This document shows positions 15,589 through 25,672 of a stretch of DNA of 64,000 nt, one piece after another. The stretch spans positions 1,116,001-1,180,000 of the forward strand of contig JAKFAO010000001.1 of assembly GCA_021527695.1 (NCBI GenBank), written 5' to 3'. The first letter of the stretch is position 1, and each line of letters begins with the position of its first letter. The translations under genes were made by a program, and so were the position numbers. The DNA is from Naematelia aurantialba (taxonomy: Eukaryota; Basidiomycota; Tremellomycetes; Tremellales; Naemateliaceae). Under the pieces are notes generated by a model. That model was not told the origin of the DNA, did no database searches, and was given only the letters and a program-made list of their open reading frames with translations.

Positions 15589-15599
15589 CGAACAACATG

Positions 15600-15706
15600 C
15601 AAGAATTATTTTAACCCTCCTTTAAAATAAATCATCACCGACCAGGACCCACCTTGTGTATTTTTGCCAGTACTTTTGCATTTTTTTGACCGACCACTTG
15701 GCATAT
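15600..15706 (+). repeat. MULE left terminal inverted repeat, outer part
   Basis: It begins CAAGAATTATTTTAACCC and matches the reverse complement of 25554-25661 essentially base for base after the first dozen positions. It stops at the CATAT target site of the solo LTR and resumes at 16124. Confidence 0.9.
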
Positions 15707-16118
15707 TGTCACGATGCTCCGGTCTAACTTCGGCGACCTGGGACCGCTGCACAACGACTGGCTTGGAAGTGGACGAGTTCCGCGCGAACTCGTTGAGAGA
15801 ATGAGGAAAGCCTTGACTTGGGACTGGGACGTGGAGTTGGGGGACGTGGACTGAGACTTGGGCGATCTAGAAGAACTCAGATGAGTGGTTGTAGACCCGT
15901 CGAAGTTAGAGCGAGATCGTTGGGTCTTGGACTATGGGACTCAATCGAGGATCGCTGAGGAACCTCACTACAATCCGGTAAATTCTATATACTCTCGTCG
16001 AGACGAGTAGATACTCGCTCAACCTAGACGAGTTCCTCAAGCCCCACGTGACAGCCATGCCGCCATCCCGGTCGCGTGGATAGTCACGTGACGACTCGAC
16101 GACGTCTCCGTCATGACA
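15707..16118 (+). mobile_element. solo LTR of a retrotransposon (Ty3-like ends) nested in the MULE terminal repeat
   Basis: The 412-bp insert starts TGTCACGATG and ends GTCATGACA, so it has the TG...CA termini of an LTR with a short inverted repeat. It is flanked by a 5-bp duplication CATAT (15702-15706 and 16119-16123). Removing the insert and one CATAT copy restores an uninterrupted match to the right terminal repeat, which proves it is a later insertion. A TATA-like word (CTATATAC) lies near 15985, as expected for an LTR promoter. No internal retrotransposon genes are present, so this is the product of LTR-LTR recombination or an assembly-independent relic. The TGTCACG start is common in fungal Ty3/gypsy LTRs; that family assignment is inference. 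Confidence 0.85.
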
Positions 16119-16149
16119 CATATTCCCTCACTTTCATGAGATCTCGATT
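16119..16149 (+). repeat. MULE left terminal inverted repeat, inner part
   Basis: From CATATTCCCTCACTTTC to CTCGATT this segment matches the reverse complement of 25530-25560 exactly and completes the left terminal repeat beyond the solo LTR. Confidence 0.9.
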
Positions 16150-16412
16150 TCATCCCTCGAATCCGATGTATAAAGCACGAATCTATCGTTCAAAGACGTA
16201 GCATATCAATTCGAGTTGGATACCATTGCTGCACGCGCCCGAATCTGTTTTTTCTCACGATTCAAACAGACACTGATCTTAGGTCCTTTCTCTCAACATC
16301 CATATTCTATTTTATACGCAGTTACTACTTGATGTCATGGTGCTGCAGGTATCTGACTCTGGGTCTTGTCCAGCTGCTCACCACATCACACTCCTTCTAA
16401 CTGTATCGCATC
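16150..16412. promoter_or_regulatory. probable promoter/5' UTR of the MULE transposase gene
   Basis: 263 bp lie between the inner end of the left terminal repeat and the start codon. A TATA-like word TATAAAG sits near 16169, and a long CT-rich leader runs from 16240 to 16400. Assignment as a promoter is from position and composition only. Confidence 0.4.
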
Positions 16413-19400
16413 ATGGCCATCAAAGACCATTCGAAGATAATTGGCTCTTTGCCAAGAGGGACCCTGCTCAAGGCTGTCACTCCTCGAAAGCGGCGAGGAC
16501 GACCACGCAAACACTTCCAAGTGCTTTCCCCACCTGTGGCTTCAACTTCTGTCATGCTTCATGACTTAGCAGAGCCAGAACAGGCTGAATTAAGGGCACT
16601 TGATGCTATCCCGAATCCAGTTTCTGAATCAGACTCTTCGGTGTCGACCTACAGCGTTCATGAAAGTGCCAATCGATTCTCCGAATCGTCGGTCATTGCC
16701 CCCTCAACAGCGTCATTTACCGTAGGACAACACGCCAAAACAGCTTCGGAAATCTCACTGCCTTTCACTCAAATTCGAAATCAGCCGACCTATTCCAGTT
16801 CCAGGTTTCGGGACCCTTCAGTATCTGAAATCGAACAAGCAATTGTCCCCGAGCCCGACTACGGCAGCTTGAGGCACTCTCCACGTCGCCTGACACCTCT
16901 ACCTCGAAGTGCTCACTCCCCAAGCTCAGTAAATACACGGTCAGGTAGCAATAATCATTCCGCTCCATCGCATCATCGAATTGCAGCCAGAAGAGAGCGA
17001 AATATCATCGAAACTTCGGTATGCAGCCGTAAGAAATTGCCAAAGAGTGCCATTTCTGTCATTGAGAGGCGCACTATCCACCCTGCACGTCTTCCCTCAG
17101 TTCGGATCACAAAAGGCTTTCTTCATGCAAGACCTCTCTCGCAGCATCCATCACTATCTTTCGAACAGACAGAGATACCACAGGATGAATTTCCGGCATT
17201 CATTGATAAAATGGTATGTTGTTAAAGATTGTGGCAGACCTTCTGATGCTCTACAGCCACAACAATGGACATTCGATCATCACACAGCCGCACCAGATGT
17301 TCGAATCGAATTTCTTGATCCACCTGGTCCCCGACCGGCGGATCTCCGAGCTCGACGCTGCAATTTCCATTTTGAAGGAAGTGAAGCAGCATCTAGATCA
17401 GAGCGGATCTTATGGAGGTCCGTGTATAGTTGTGCTGGGGCATGCGAGCAAATTCGAAGTCGAGCCATGCTTCATATTCCGGAAACCTTTGAGGAGGAAG
17501 TACAACTAGCGGCGGATCTACTTCGAAAAGACTGCTCATCGAATTCAGACGAGGGATCCATGGCAGCAAACGCAGGACCAATTCGAGACAGGTTTTCATG
17601 TACAGCCAAGCTGATTGTAAGCATATTCATTCTTGGCAGTGTGCTGCGGAACTGATTGGGTCTAGCTTCAGGTCAGCATTGCTCAAACCTTCACAAAGAC
17701 ATGCACGATCTTCGAAACGTCAGGCCATCAGCATTGTCCGGACATGGAGCTCCTCGATGTTTCCCCATTTGTGCGCAGGATTCTGTGCGACATGGCATCT
17801 GTTTTCTCTTCGACACCCGGGCAATTGAAGAGGCGTGAGTTCAGAATGGATTCGAGCTCCCATCACCACTTCGAAACTGATTTGATTCCTGCGTAGAATG
17901 GGAGGAGATAGCTAAGGAACATCCATATGCTCGTTTCATTCGATTGCAGTGTCCATGGAGACAGCCAAAAGACAAAGATTTCCGGTCGGCGATTTTAGCT
18001 GCCTCACGGAAGAAACGCCTGGATCGTGATCCTCTGGCAGCGATTGAGATCTTATCTAAACGTTCTCCCGAGGCATTCTTGCAGTACGTCTTTGCTTTTG
18101 TGTCTTCATATGAAATGATTCTGATACAGTGAACTCAAACAGTGTCCATTATCCGTGTCTGTCAGATTTGAACTCTGAATTCAAGCCTGGAGACCGATTT
18201 GAATGCATCATTGGACCAAAATCTGGTCTAAAAAATGCTCTGCTTCATGCAGTGGAACGGGGGATGTATATGGACTCCTCCTGGCGCAACAAGAATGCTT
18301 TTCGATGTCCCATGACCATTCTAAGCACTATCAATGAATTCCACCGCATGATTCCTAGTAGGTTTAATTCCTCTTGCCTGAGCACCAATAGAGCTCATGG
18401 TGCAGTCGCTGTAATGGTATCAAATACTGCTACTGAACAAATATATACTTTATTCCTGCAAACGATCCTGAAGAGCGTAAATCAGCTGGCTTCGAAGTTA
18501 GTTGACGAATATTCGAATCGAGACGACGGCACGGACAAGGAAACACAAGAATTACTATATCTTCGAGCACTGGCTGTAGCCGGAGACGACGGTGAAGGCT
18601 TTTGCCCTGCATTTATGATGATCGATCGCAGCGCCGCAGAGCGCAATGCAATACGGACCGTCTTTCCAGGTTTACCGATTCGAGTATGCCAATTTCATTT
18701 CATGCAGGCCTGCAAATCCAACGGGCAAACGGCTTTCCCTCGAGACAGACAAGGCGCAACTCAACTCAACATGTACATGAAAGCGCTTCGAAAGGCTCAA
18801 CGATGCCCAATAGAGGCCGAGTGGCCTAAATATTTCAAGGCTTTGGGGGCGGATGTGAATGCGATCGCGAGGGACGATGGAGCGGCTTGGCAAAAAATTG
18901 GCACTTACCTCTCGAAGTATTGGTTCGACGACAGCTGGCGCCCATATTGTGTCGATTATGGTATTCCACCACACTACAACAGGGATGGCCCCTGGTCGAC
19001 TAACAATTATGCGGAAGTGGCGTTCCGAGTATTTGACCGGACATTTTTGTCTTGTCGCGTCAACAAACGGTAAGTAGAGACGATATTCTGGTCATATTCT
19101 GCAGGCTGACGATTCGAAAGCATGGATCGCTTGATTCAAATTATTCTGATGGAATACTTTCCTTATTATGAGCTTTTCGAGCATAAAGAAGCGCGACCCG
19201 ATCCGAATTTGGTGAATGCCATCACCACAGGCCTAAAAATGTGGCAACAAGATCTCATCGATCCCACCACACATATTGGGCTTGCGTACCAGTTGGGCGC
19301 TCTCCAGATGGCCTTTCGAGTGGATCCAGTCATTAATCGGGCAATTGCAGGTGATTCAGCAGTCACACAATTTTGCGGCACGCTCGAATCGAATGGACGA

Positions 19401-22310
19401 GAAACTTGCACATGTGTGCAGTTCCAGCAAACTGGAAAACGCTGTCCTCACCTCTGGGCCATGGTTGTCTACCGAATTGCCGGCAACGTCAATTCATACG
19501 AAGAAGAAACTGCTTACATTTCTGGCAAGATACTTCGCGGACAATTTCGAGACTCGAATCGATTTGAAGAGGCCTCCCCACATGTCCACAACTATAATGA
19601 CGACACTGTCAACATTCGAGATGATATTGGAGATGTCACTGAGTTTTGGAAGAGCCCTGTTGTCGATTGGAAACTTGGGGATCAGCCGGATGGGGATGTG
19701 GCAGCGGTTTCAAGCAGATTCATGGGAATAGACAAGGCAAGCTCCGAAGATGAGCACTTTCGACATGCGACATCCCCCATCTCTAGACGCCATACTGGCA
19801 ACAGGAGTTCGCTACACCTAGAGACTGGAGAAGATCTCTGGGCCAAACATATAGAAATCGAAACCTCTCCAGCTGTGAAGATCCACTCGCCACCAACTGG
19901 TCGACCCCGAAAAATTGTCCCCCTGCAATTGGGTAGAAAAGGTCAGCGGAGCTCTCTTGCCATCAAAATCCAGGAGCAATCAGCACCGAAACGACCATTG
20001 GGTGCTCGAAATCACGATAACATCAGTCATATTCTAACAGTCTTTCACCTATTGAGCAGAGAATCACTTGTCTCGGCTGGTCTCAGCTCAATCGAATCCA
20101 TGTCTTGTGGGCGGAATTCGCGTGTATTACATACATGGCGAGCCTTTCATGCGAGATCAAGTGGAACGGGAGTCATTGACATTCCGAATTTAAGACTAGC
20201 CTTGGAAGGTACTTGTTAACTCCTAGCCTTTCGACCATGTGCTGACCACGATGTAGATGAGCTCCACTTAGATGGCTGTGACAGTCCAGGCATCTTCTTT
20301 GAGAGAATGATGGTTCTGGTCAGCAGGGGAGACCATGGTGACTTAGCTCGAAGCTTCTTCAACTTGCGAGCGATCACTGTCGATAGATGTCCCAACTGCA
20401 ACTCAATTCGCCAGGAAGCCAAAGAACGATATTCGATACAACTCCAGGGCTCAGAGTTTTTGAAGAAGAAGGCCTTTGGTCATACAGCATCTCTGAGAGA
20501 ACTTCTCTCAGATTTCCTCACATTCAGCCGGCAGCGAACATGCGCTACCTGTCATAAAACGGGAGAATTCAAGCATACTGTGGACTTCGAATCTAATCCT
20601 TCAATTCTATTCCTCCAAGTCACCTGGAACAGTAGTCAGCTCCACTCATTCGAAGAGTTCCTTCTGATCGATTCGAACATCGACATACCTGTAAGGACTG
20701 ATATTTTGCTCAGGCAAGTTGTTCAGTATCGGATTGGCGGGATTATATGCCAGCAAGTCAACCACAAGCATCCTCCGCATTACACCGTTTTCCTTCGCAA
20801 GGACGAGGCATGGTTTGAGATTGATGACGAGCAAGTTCATCGAATCCATCTGCTTTCGAATGCATTTGAGGCCGGCCGAATGCCAGTGGCCTTTTGGTAC
20901 GTGCGTTTGGACATTTCGGACGTGTCGCTGGGTAAAGAACCAGTTGTGCCAATTGGCAGAAAGAGAAGTAAGCCGACCTGTCTTAGAATGTCAAAGCTGA
21001 TAGCTGGAAAGATCTTCAAGACAGGCAATCAGCTCAACATGACATTGGGAAGAGACATAAAGCAGTCAATCATCGATTCGAATCGAAAGTTTCCTCACAA
21101 TTCGACTCTAAAATTGCAGAGCCACCATCCAAAGCAAGGAGTCGACCATCCGAACCTAAACATGTACTGGACGATTCAGTCGTCCCAGAGCTGCTTGAGC
21201 CAAATGTAATACTTCGATTCAAATCTATCAAATTTTCGCAGGCAAAGTCGATTGTCCCCATGGTCACCACTCGAGCACTCGAATCCCCAAGGGCATACAA
21301 TCAAGCATCACTTCACAAAATTCTGGCACACCTTGAAGCATCTCGCGAACACCTGCTCAGATACGATGACTACGAAGGCCAGTACAATCTTGTCGTCATC
21401 TTTGGTCAAAGAATGGGTCTCCCATTAAAAACACTTCAAGCGGGTTTCAGTGTGACTGATTGGTGGGCTGACGACTGGATGGAGGCCCTTGTGACAGTCG
21501 GCATGAGTCTGGTCAGGAGACGTGCTGCATTAGGACACCCCATTGGCGAAGCTTTCGAAGATTTGACAACTGCTCGGAGAGAAACCAGCCTGGGAAGATG
21601 GTGTGTGAAGGACCATCCGGAAAACCCGTCTTTGTATGTTTCTGCAGGAGGGTCAATCCCCTCCGAATGGTTGTTTGGCAAGTCTTCGGCTTGGCTACAG
21701 CGCACAACGCTTGCATTTGTAAACGAAAATGCTCATTGGTCTCTCATGGCTGTCTTCGGCCCAGAAAAGATTGTCGTGCGTTATGACAGCATGAGTGGCA
21801 AATGTGACTCGAAAAAATTGGAGCAGGTGAGAGATGCTCCAGAAAGGATTAATTGCTAATGAATGTTCCATCAGAGCATCCCTGCCATCTTCAGGACAAG
21901 ATTCGAGTATGAGATCAAGCAGAATGCAGTCGACAGAGCACTTTTGGAGGATTGGGTTTTTGCTCCGAATTCCCCAGTGAGTGGCGAATTGGCCTTGCTA
22001 ACCGGATCAGAAAATGATGGAACTCCTGGATTGGCCTCAACAGGAAGATGGACACAGTTGTGGACCCCTCACAGTGGCGTCGGCTCTCCTGCTCAGCCAA
22101 AATATCATGCCCACCAGAGATGCGCTTGGTATGTCAGGGAGAACTTTCAACACACGGCGCGCGGAGAGCTTGAGGCAGTCTTTGATTCAGCTCTTTATGT
22201 CCAGCTGGGTCTTGCAACCGGTCTCGAATTCGGTCTGGGGATCATCACAGATAAGTAGAGTCGTTAGACAGTACGCGGTAGATATAGAGAAGACTACTGC
22301 ATCTGCTTGA
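16413..22310 (+). CDS. MULE transposase fused to USP-like and Ulp1-like protease domains
   Basis: Model: join(16413..17213, 17257..17616, 17666..17834, 17897..18083, 18143..19069, 19121..20208, 20257..20967, 21066..21826, 21875..21976, 22011..22310), 1,801 residues, every phase closing. An AT-hook (PRKRRGRPRK) lies at 25-33. A finger follows with C382, C400, H408 and H410, like the N-terminal fingers of MULE/FAR1 proteins. The MULE DDE core comes next: D550 (GMYMDSSWRNKN), D667 (MMIDRSAAERN, then CQFHF) and E797 (STNNYAEVAF). The SWIM finger has C911, C913, C923 and H925. Around 1105-1385 is a USP-like region: ARNHDNISHILTVF where a Cys box should be (Ser at 1117), two CxxC pairs, and a His box HYTVFLRKDEAWFEIDD (H1352). 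Around 1520-1760 is an Ulp1/C48 peptidase with H1638, D1655, Q1713 and C1719 (EDGHSCGPLT). Cutting and joining DNA is the expected transposase role; the protease roles are inference. The intron at 20968-21065 is the least certain. If it were read differently, the gene could be two. Confidence 0.75.
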
Positions 22311-22513
22311 GCCTCATGCACCTGGATAAAAATTAGCTACAATGTGAGACGAGCTCGAATCCAATATCTTCTCCTCGAATCTATGCCAAACCACGTCTAA
22401 GTTACGTTTTTGAGGGCTGTCATTGACACCTCGACACTGAAAAGTGATTCGAAGAGACAATATGCACTTTCGAGGATGATATTTCAAGATACATTTACGC
22501 TACAACGGGCTTC
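22311..22513. other. short convergent gap between the two MULE genes
   Basis: 203 bp between the two stop codons, AT-rich with several TCGAA/TTCGA words. It presumably holds both 3' ends. Confidence 0.4.
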
Positions 22514-25093
22514 CTAATGTTTTCTGGTAGATCTCCTCAAAACAGTCTCCGAGGACGACGCAGCAGGTCCTGGGACAGTAGGTCCTGGGAGAGGAGTCAG
22601 TGGCTCATCTTGAGTCTCGGTAGGCTGTTTTCGCAGCTCCTCAAGTTCCCTCTGAAGGCGCTCTACCTCGATTCGAAGCTCGTCTGTCTCCTTAGCCCCC
22701 TGCACCTTCTCTGCTTGGACAGCCTCTAGCTGTTTCTCGGCCTGAGCTCGCTTCTCTTCGGATTCTGACAGCTGAGATGCCAGCTTTTCACCTCTCAAAG
22801 TAGCTTCTGCTCTTGCTGACTCGGCCTCATCGAGAGCGTTGTTTGTCATGACATGTGCTGACTTTACCGCCTTGATCTGGGCCTCCATCACTTTCATGCG
22901 CTCCACAAGGCGTTCGTTTTCAGTTTTCAGACCATGGAGCTCTTTCAGTGAATCTTCGAGCTGCTGTTGCTTGAGCAGCGAGTCGGCTTCCGCTTTCTGA
23001 GACTGTTTGAGCTGCTGGTCCTTCTCTGTCGCTGCCGAATCCGCTTCTGCATGACGTCGAATGGACTCGTCCCGGCTGCGAATTGCATTGTCTCGCTCTG
23101 CCCTCATCTCCTCGACCTCTCGAAGTATTCTGCTGTTCGTAGATTGGATGGCCTCCCTATCCTTCACAGCCGTTCGAAAACGCTCCTCGAGTGTCCTCAG
23201 CTCCCCTCTGACTTGGTATGCCTCGGTTCGTGCATCAGAGTCTATGGATTGGAGCTGATGCTTCATGGTTTCGAGCTCGTTGTTCTTGCCCTCGAGCTCA
23301 TCGAGCAGATTCATGAGGCGTCGGTCGAGATTCTTCATCATTTCCTCTGAGTTTTCTGCTGCTATTCGATGAGACTCAATTGCATCTTTCGCCTCAAGCA
23401 GCTCGTTCTCGAAAGCACCGACTGCTCTTGCCACAGCTTTGTTGTTTGCCGCATGCCAAGTACTGAGTTGTCCGAGCTTGGTACCCACCCGAATCAACTC
23501 ATTTGACATGTCTGCGTACTCCGGAGGAACCTGATTCAGACTATTCGAAATCCTGTCTTGAATCGAAGCAATGGATGCATCATTCAGAATTAAATCTGAA
23601 GAGCCCGAATCGACTGCCGGCAAGTTGATAGGAAGGAGCATGTGTGCTGGAACTTCGAAAAGAGGTTTCTCCCGCCGAATATAAGACAGGTCGTTGGGAT
23701 CATGAGGCGCCCGTTCGTCGAAAAGAATTTCTGATGCCGTATGATACAGTGGCAGCTGTAGCGTGATCTGGCGCCTCTGCCGAGAGAACGTGAGAACGGT
23801 CGAATCCATTGGTGCCGCTGCTGCTTCTGCTTGGTCTCCTGCCAGTACTGTAGCCACCGGTTCATCTCTCGACGATGCATGTACTTTGGTACGAGTTACA
23901 ATCGGTGCTGGTGCTGGTGCTGGTGCTGGTGCTGGTGCTGGTGCTGGTGCTGGTGCTGGCGCTGATATTCGTGTTCGCCCTATGGATGCCCAGGCCGTTG
24001 GCGATGCTTGAGAGGTAGCAGGAGTCACATGTGTCGGATTCGAGGTGTGCCGTGTCGATTCGAAGGCAGTTGATGTACCAGGTTGCTTCAAGATCCGAGC
24101 TGCCGCTGGCCTTGCTGGAGCTTTAGTCTCTTTGAATCGAATCGAAGAATGAATTCGGCTCCCGCTTCCGGCTTGAGGACTTGCAACTGGCACAATCTCA
24201 TCGTCATCTGCCAGCTGATCCTCCTCAGACAGCTCCCTCTCACCCTCCTGATCCTCGCTCGAACCCTCCGCCAAATCGATCACCGGATACATGGGCAGTT
24301 TCCTCTTCTGATGTGGGGTTGGAGATGAAGATACATCTCGAACCGAAGACTTTCTTTTCCCGAGACGGTCGAATTGCCTTGGGGGTGAAATGGACCCTCG
24401 CAATCTTTTGCTGGCGATAGAGGATGATGTCGCCCGAGATTTTGAGCCAATCCCATGTGTCTGCCGAGGAGTTGCAATCACATCCTTCTTGACTGCTCGA
24501 TTCAAGACCATATCCCAGACCTTATCCCTCTCGCTTTCAAGTGTAGGCAGAATATGCCATCGCCCAGTGTAAGGTAGTTGGACATTCTTTAAAGCGCAAC
24601 TCGTTTCCGGCTTCACATAGCAATGAAGGCAGACATTTGTTCGTCCATTGAGCTGCCACTTTGTAACAAAAGTCTTGCTGTGAATAGAATCGGAATTTGG
24701 ACAAATCAAAGAAGGATGTCTGCTTTCGTCAGCTCGATTCAAGATGGGCGTGTAGATCCCGACTTACTCATAAATAAACGCTGGATGACAGTTCGAAATA
24801 TGATCCTTTTTTCCAGATCCCTCACAATTCACGCCCCGGTGAGCAGTTTTCGGGATGGTGGTCAAACCCCCGTCTTCCAAGTCGATTCGATGGAGACCTA
24901 GCCTCGCTGCCGACGGTGGAAAGTACCGATCTGCAGAGCATTGCCAGTCTTGGATGGGACCACCGAATCTCTGTTCGAACCGACGTCTGGCTGCCGGGCT
25001 CTTCCAAACAGGGTCTTCACGGATCGAGCGCACCCATTCTTCGGCATTTGGCCCGATAGCCTTTGCGTCGTGAATCTCAGCAGCGGTAGCCAT
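22514..25093 (-). CDS. MULE accessory protein: Cys-rich N-terminus, Pro-Ala repeat, long coiled coil
   Basis: Model: complement(join(22514..24722, 24768..25093)), 844 residues, one 45-nt intron. No family is recognised. Residues 1-160 hold WVRSIREDPVWKSPAARRRFEQRFGG, then a Cys/His-rich stretch with GVNCEG, ISNCHP, LICPNS and NVCLHCYVKPETSCAL, which could bind zinc. Residues about 200-300 are Ser-rich with an acidic run (EGSSEDQEGERELSEEDQLADDDE). A (Pro-Ala) repeat follows, encoded by a GGTGCT hexanucleotide array at 23909-23958. Residues about 500-825 form an uninterrupted heptad-rich coiled coil, ending in Pro/Ser/Arg. The gene lies inside the element, convergent to the transposase. It shares the element's TCGAA-rich composition, so it is an integral part rather than a captured neighbour. 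It may be a second, structural or targeting protein, like MURB-type helpers, but this is speculation. Confidence 0.75.
23905..23962 (-). repeat. GGTGCT hexanucleotide array coding for Pro-Ala
   Basis: About nine perfect GGTGCT units on the plus strand (AGCACC in sense) encode alternating Ala-Pro in the accessory protein. The purity points to recent slippage. Confidence 0.85.
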
Positions 25094-25529
25094 CCTGAAT
25101 TGATATGTAAGTTGCTGATAATGCCTGAAAGTCTTGTGCCGAGCTCTCTGGATGTGGTGTACTCGAAAAGTTCGTCAAAATCAGTACACAGAGTGTTTGC
25201 GTGTGATGGGGAATCTTTGTTTGTCTGCCTGCCGGCGTTGAGTGATATTGTACGGTTTAGTGATGTTCTACAGGGTCAGAATCCTTTGATTGATGCTACA
25301 CTAGCAGAATCGCTTCCGAATGGTCTCGATTATGCGGCTTTATCTGTCATTCAGTGCATAGGAGACTTAGGCTAGATTCGAGACCTGGATTCGAGACAGA
25401 TCTAGGGGGTTGACCACTTTGATGGTAATCTAGCTCTGAACTTGAATCGAAGAACCTTCCATCTTGAAGGCCAAGAAGGTCATCAAGCACACACAGATTC
25501 AGCTGCGCTGCATGCTTAAGGCAGGCTCG
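25094..25529. other. MULE right subterminal non-coding region
   Basis: 436 bp between the accessory gene start and the right terminal repeat, likely its promoter. It holds several TTCGA/TCGAA words (for example near 25376-25388 and 25444) but no reading frame of interest. Confidence 0.5.
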
Positions 25530-25661
25530 AATCGAGATCTCATGAAAGTGAGGGAATATGCCAAGTGGTCGGTCAAAAAAATGCAAAAGTACTGGCAAAA
25601 ATACACAAGGTGGGTCCTGGTCGGTGATGATTTATTTTAAAGGAGGGTTAAAATATACTTG
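25530..25661 (-). repeat. MULE right terminal inverted repeat
   Basis: 132 bp whose reverse complement matches 15600-15706 plus 16124-16149, ending CTTG next to the target duplication CGAACAACATG at 25662-25672. Confidence 0.9.
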
Positions 25662-25672
25662 CGAACAACATG

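Follow-up and report, generated by a model that had tools for sequence, protein, structure and literature searches.

We describe here a complete Mutator-like element (MULE) in a 64,000-nt stretch of the Naematelia aurantialba genome (the window, C1:1116001-1180000 of a 21.0-Mb, 15-contig genome), whose gene 1 joins a DDE transposase, a ubiquitin-specific protease (USP) fold and an Ulp1-like Peptidase_C48 domain. The catalytic Cys of the USP fold is replaced by Ser, and the active-site residues of the C48 domain are all present. We read this as an autonomous cut-and-paste fungal MULE with a long C-terminal arm of two ubiquitin-family-protease folds, the USP fold binding and the C48 domain cutting, an account that we hold in even balance.

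The family A element and its copies

The element is the first of five near-identical family A copies, which lie on C1, C2, C11, C14 and C15. Its boundaries follow from terminal inverted repeats (TIRs) and target-site duplications (TSDs), and its left TIR is split by a solo long terminal repeat (LTR).

15599..25662, forward strand, complete Mutator-like element, family A copy 1 of 5 (TSDs, TIRs, five near-identical copies with their own TSDs)
15590..15598, no strand, left TSD GAACAACAT, 9 bp
25663..25671, no strand, right TSD GAACAACAT, 9 bp
15599..16149, forward strand, left TIR of about 130 bp, split by the solo LTR (inverted-arm match)
25530..25662, reverse strand, right TIR (inverted-arm match)
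15707..16118, no strand, 412-bp solo LTR in the left TIR (TG...CA ends, 5-bp TSD CATAT)

The TIR of family A starts with GCAAG, and the arms 15607-15707 and 16119-16149 match 25530-25655 in inverted orientation at 100%. Every one of the five copies is flanked by its own 9-bp duplication, within the MULE range of 8-11 bp. The solo LTR occupies this site in the window copy only, the left TIR being unbroken in the other four. The C14 copy has a second nested 412-bp solo LTR, within its C48 exon; the C2 and C11 copies are uninterrupted, as is the C15 copy outside its N-masked bases. The 412-bp solo LTR has at least 32 near-full-length matches elsewhere in the genome.

The five copies differ by single bases at 18 positions within the element, a count taken outside the 1,107 bases read as N in each of the C14 and C15 copies. 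Ten of these positions fall within the span of gene 1: eight in coding sequence (four missense changes, four silent, zero nonsense) and two in introns, one placed on the model and the other (17232) assigned to the first intron by coordinate. The family A element has moved recently as a unit, and it is apparently recently active. With a DDE transposase, TSDs in the 8-11-bp range and long TIRs it belongs to the MULEs, some of which lack long TIRs.

Gene model and domain order of gene 1

16413..22310, forward strand, gene 1, 11 exons, 1,794 residues (open frame, GT-AG introns, family-B counterparts)
16413-17213, 17257-17616, 17672-17834, 17897-18083, 18143-18357, 18406-19069, forward strand, exons 1-6
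19121-20208, 20257-20967, 21033-21826, 21875-21976, 22011-22310, forward strand, exons 7-11
16494..16514, forward strand, AT-hook-like RGRPRK motif (by eye)
18264..19019, forward strand, DDE transposase core, intron 18358-18405 inside (Pfam MULE)
19407..19451, forward strand, SWIM-type CxC...CxH motif (by eye)
19938..20966, forward strand, USP/C19-fold domain, intron 20209-20256 inside (Pfam UCH, predicted structure, alignment)
20968..21032, forward strand, intron joining the USP and C48 exons, acceptor uncertain (donor at the matching place in family B)
21300..22307, forward strand, Peptidase_C48 domain, start approximate, introns 21827-21874 and 21977-22010 inside (Pfam, active-site residues, A+B profile)

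The initial annotation, made from the letters of the window, had proposed a single open spliced chain of 1,801 residues. The chain is open in our model too, and its length is corrected to 1,794 residues in 11 exons, the 48-nt intron 18358-18405 having been added to a 1,810-residue model. All ten introns have a counterpart at the matching place in family B, including the 34-nt last intron. The order of the parts is AT-hook, DDE core, SWIM motif, USP fold and C48 domain. Pfam MULE (PF10551) matches the DDE core at 28.3 bits in six-frame translation against a cut-off of 27.6, and at 26.5 bits, just below it, on the spliced chain. The core had been foreseen with the residues D550, D667 and E797; by eye we place them at D548 (18273), D649 (18624) and E779 (19014). 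The proposed AT-hook is recovered as the RGRPRK motif. As for the SWIM finger, the motif is visible in the sequence and Pfam SWIM support is weak, falling below cut-off in five of the eight relatives introduced below. A C2H2 finger, also proposed, finds no Pfam support.

Families B and C and relatives in other genomes

The three-part order recurs in families B and C of the same genome. Four copies make up family B (C14, C9 and two on C12); the one on C14 spans 274111-283892 (9,782 bp) and has a TIR of 125 bp at 96.8%. Its protein is 59% identical to that of family A, and nucleotide identity in aligned stretches is 65-79%. Family C has two copies, on C10 (498433-508823, 10.4 kb) and C12, both with TSDs of 8-10 bp that are ambiguous by one base. 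Its domain order is that of family A at about 33% identity in the alignment, and several intron places are common to the two. The inverted-repeat search used found no TIR for family C; by eye, repeats were seen near both ends. The genome holds at least 12 MULE matches, and 11 of the 12 listed fall in families A-C. The twelfth, at C3:997642, is a MULE-type transposase with a CCHC-like knuckle (by eye) outside these families.

A profile of A, B and C was searched against 5.8 billion proteins, and the scoring of 5,545 candidates gave eight relatives of Tremellales type (P0001-P0008), seven of which come from Naematelia encephala, Tremellales sp. Uapishka_1, Tremella mesenterica (two), Kwoniella mangroviensis and K. 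newhampshirensis (two). Most are annotated as hypothetical or uncharacterised in public databases. A protein search with the A chain alone returned no relatives, hence the silence of a single sequence means little here. Six of the eight (P0001-P0006) carry MULE, USP and C48 in one predicted protein; P0007 breaks off where the USP begins, and P0008 carries MULE and SWIM only. A MULE with transposase, USP-like and Ulp1-like domains in one gene, as first suggested for the window, is thus real, with the same order in families B and C and in these six relatives. The triple architecture is common to several genera and under selection. In the family trees (the transposase tree built without P0005 and P0007) only A+B and P0006+P0008 form firm groups, and most deep forks are open.

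The USP fold and its lost cysteine

Similarity to the UCH fold had been set as a check on the initial annotation, and it was found both as a Pfam UCH match and as a Foldseek match of the predicted structure to the pseudo-ubiquitin-hydrolase PAN2 (3.3e-12); to be held against the latter is the structure's mean pLDDT (predicted local distance difference test) of 63, with 16 residues of read-through intron included. A profile of the A and B USP domains matches five of the eight relatives and family C, and P0003, which it misses, is matched by Pfam UCH at 1.5e-20.

At the position of the catalytic Cys, family A has Ser1099 (20025-20027), and His1334 (20778), Asp1349/1350 (20823-20828) and Asn1094 are kept. 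Among nine aligned domains (A, B, C and P0001-P0006) the Cys is present in seven and is Ser in A and B, and the His is kept in all nine. The alignment further shows that this USP lacks the GHY Gly and the NTGxDC box. In family C all active-site residues are present, and on this alignment the USP of family C and the relatives has the residues of an active deubiquitinase. The initial annotation had imagined an element that edits ubiquitin marks; for A and B the Ser speaks against this, and the Cys is kept in C and P0001-P0006.

The Ser codon is AGT in both A and B and the A+B group has full support, hence the simplest explanation would be that the loss is derived and occurred once, before the two families split. 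As the deep forks are open, parsimony is our ground for placing the Cys loss. The A and B domains differ at 41% of aligned residues with a ratio of nonsynonymous to synonymous change (dN/dS) of 0.15, equal to that of C48; it counts against these values that dS is near saturation, which makes them rough. Since the Cys is lost and the domain still constrained, we suggest that the USP of A and B is a dead enzyme under constraint and probably a ubiquitin binder rather than an editor.

The C48 domain

Pfam Peptidase_C48, likewise set as a check, scores above its cut-off of 20.7 in family A (25.0 on the chain, 28.5 on the domain alone). The active site reads His1631 (21734), Asp1648 (21785), Gln1706 (22041) and Cys1712 (22059). 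In the same nine sequences Gln and Cys are present throughout and His and Asp in eight, the exception being P0003, whose model is without that stretch. An A+B profile of the domain finds P0001-P0006 with E-values from 2.9e-32 to 9.9e-24, and none of seven shuffled controls. A C48 profile run against PDB sequences gave one weak match (E 0.41), hence the C48 call rests on Pfam in family A, the active-site residues and the A+B profile. With the whole His-Asp-Gln-Cys set retained, SUMO editing by this domain, which the initial annotation had also suggested, is possible. Another Peptidase_C48 match lies at C3:935622-935894, in a 472-residue open frame with one TAG, away from the listed family copies.

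One polypeptide or two

Donors for the intron between the USP and C48 exons are present in all three families, as GTAAGC at 20968 in A, GTGAGC at the matching place in B and GTAAGT in the longer linker of C. Because the A and B donors match, the C donor is good and the genes elsewhere are modelled as single genes, a single gene 1 transcript appears likely.

Two observations weigh against this. Conservation is poor across the USP-C48 linker (37% identity over 41 aligned codons), and a Met common to A and B, that of MVTT (ATG at 21260), directly precedes C48; together they leave room for a separate C48 protein. There might then be two genes, a transposase-USP gene ending at the stop 21207-21209 and a C48 gene beginning at the MVTT ATG, with intron retention perhaps yielding both forms. 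In all three families the open frames do overlap where the two parts meet, and similarity climbs beyond MVTT. However, the donors at the joint are good, P0001-P0006 are single gene models that span it (as predictions), and the MVTT Met is confined to A and B among the nine aligned sequences. We therefore regard two genes as unlikely.

Gene 2 and the dispersed TTCGA/TCGAA motif

22514..25093, reverse strand, gene 2, convergent with gene 1, about 843 residues, exons 25093-24768 and 24719-22514 (acceptor uncertain by 3 nt)

MuDR likewise has a convergent second gene. By eye, gene 2 has some cysteines near its N-terminus and a coiled-coil-like C-terminal half. It is present in family B at 43% identity and was not found in the 9.5 kb of the family C element that were searched (a further 2 kb of element lie outside). 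The exon-2 frame matched no Pfam family above cut-off, and residues 1-420 as query found no relatives. A GGTGCT repeat in the gene (23904-23971, an Ala-Pro run) varies in length among the A copies, at 23904-23921.

The motif TTCGA/TCGAA occurs 117 times in the element (9.65 kb without the solo LTR) and 87 times in the remaining 53.9 kb of the window, against first-order expectations of about 30 and about 109. It is spread over the whole element, coding and non-coding, in family B as well as in A, and within gene-1 coding sequence over all three frames and both strands. Synonymous codons were shuffled 1,000 times per coding sequence. Gene 1 of A (69 against 32.6 +- 5.1) and of B (61 against 28.2 +- 4.9) lie above all 1,000 shuffles, an excess of about twofold (z about 7), as does gene 2 exon 2 (25 against 11.9 +- 2.9). 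The 11 long open frames outside the element (at least 250 codons, unverified as genes) have no excess (20 against 24.2 +- 4.3, z -1). Of the motif sites, 18/65 (28%) are identical between A and B, compared with 119/613 (19%) for 5-mers of the same composition; with this turnover, density seems to be kept more than position. A 12-base form of the motif was uninformative, 10 of its 13 exact genome matches falling at a single site shared by the five A copies.

By analogy with plant anti-silencing MULEs, the gene 1 arm and/or gene 2 might recognise TTCGA and remove silencing marks. The density in the element, the excess over the shuffles, the unenriched outside frames and the turnover of positions would all suit such a complex. 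Nevertheless, the excess is smaller on a second-order background, itself inflated by the motif (62.6 expected and 117 observed in A, 66.6 and 120 in B), and other 5-mers score alike in the remaining window (CCGCC 8.0 versus 6.9). In gene 1 of family C the count stays within its own shuffles (32 against 21.5 +- 3.8, maximum 36). DNA flanking 26 LTR copies holds 4.9 motifs per kb, which counts against an explanation confined to the element and makes a repeat-specific mutation bias possible. Further, the motif is as frequent in coding DNA as elsewhere, whereas VANC21 motifs are mainly non-coding (PMC5735166, in the part available). Taken together, we find an anti-silencing complex of this kind rather unlikely.

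Relation to known systems

Combinations of MULE with Ulp1, of MULE with OTU and of a transposase with C19 are already in print. Ulp1-bearing Mutator elements of hydra, lancelet, Arabidopsis, maize, rice and melon likewise pair a MULE transposase with C48, the USP fold being unmentioned in the available part of that paper (PMC2836005). The same portion describes Ginger1 transposons, which also join a DDE enzyme to a C-terminal OTU or Ulp1 domain but differ in their Gypsy-integrase-like enzyme and carry either OTU or Ulp1 (with PHD in one case) but not both, with no USP in the table. It also describes a Trichomonas transposase_11 protein that likewise has peptidase C19, with another transposase type and Ulp1 unmentioned. 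The MuDR-6_HM group has a deubiquitinase-type domain ('Ovarian Tumour Gene'), OTU rather than USP, with Ulp1 unlisted, and the words 'ulp1', 'ubiquitin' and 'protease' do not occur in the main text of that paper as far as available (PMC6446971). In the VANDAL/VANC anti-silencing MULEs of plants a short motif is likewise enriched in the element's own DNA, but mainly in non-coding DNA, unlike TTCGA (PMC5735166, in part).

The triple combination had been presented as not known to be described, and in the open-access literature (subscription papers and Repbase lying outside) we found no report of USP and Ulp1 in one MULE protein. PAN2 likewise has a USP fold that has lost its catalytic Cys. It is a host RNA-decay protein and has no transposon context.

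A possible mechanism

Ubiquitin-family protease-type domains recur in DNA transposons, where their role is unsettled and is offered as a possibility (PMC2836005, in the part available). For the present element, the evidence hints at a transposase able to read or remove marks of the ubiquitin family. As one polypeptide, the whole arm would travel with the transposase to the element ends and integration sites. There C48 may strip the transposase, or repair or chromatin proteins close by, of SUMO or a related modifier. The USP fold of A and B would no longer cut, because its Cys is Ser; in the manner of a C-to-S trap or of a pseudo-hydrolase such as PAN2, it may bind ubiquitin or ubiquitinated chromatin or repair proteins and position the complex. 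What we infer in this scheme are the binding of ubiquitin, the specificity for SUMO and the site of action. Several observations weigh against it. Pfam MULE falls short of its cut-off in P0005 and P0006, as UCH does in P0006, Pfam C48 alone misses family C and all eight relatives (none at E<=0.1), and solo LTRs interrupt two of the five A copies, that of C14 within the C48 exon.

Further, we speculate that a ubiquitin reader, a SUMO eraser and gene 2 might form a sequence-guided anti-silencing or repair-steering machine. The self-spread motif would let the complex coat the element, bind ubiquitinated chromatin and strip SUMO-dependent silencing, the USP having switched from eraser (C and the relatives) to reader (A and B). 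We consider this improbable as a whole. The families amount to a natural experiment: in one lineage the USP looks intact, in another its Cys is replaced yet the domain is conserved, and both pair it with a conserved C48 joined to the transposase. The contrast bears on whether cutting or binding matters for transposition, and the dispersed motif is a second, independent handle on self-recognition.

That the USP of A and B has stayed active as a deubiquitinase, through Ser1099 or through a different Cys such as that of SCGRNSR (confined to A and B), would fit the retained Asn, His and Asp and the purifying selection on the domain. We nonetheless hold it to be very improbable, as the USP has also lost the NTGxDC box and the GHY Gly, C-to-S is a standard inactivating mutation and we know of no natural USP with a Ser nucleophile.

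Gene capture is frequent in MULEs (PMC6446971 and PMC6431247, as far as available), and both domains could be roleless passengers captured from host genes in Pack-MULE style. Here no host gene fragments replace the transposase gene, whose core is open and joined to the domains; we reject capture, which is scarcely credible, on conservation, the same order being found in three families and several genera, joined to the transposase, at the dN/dS given above.

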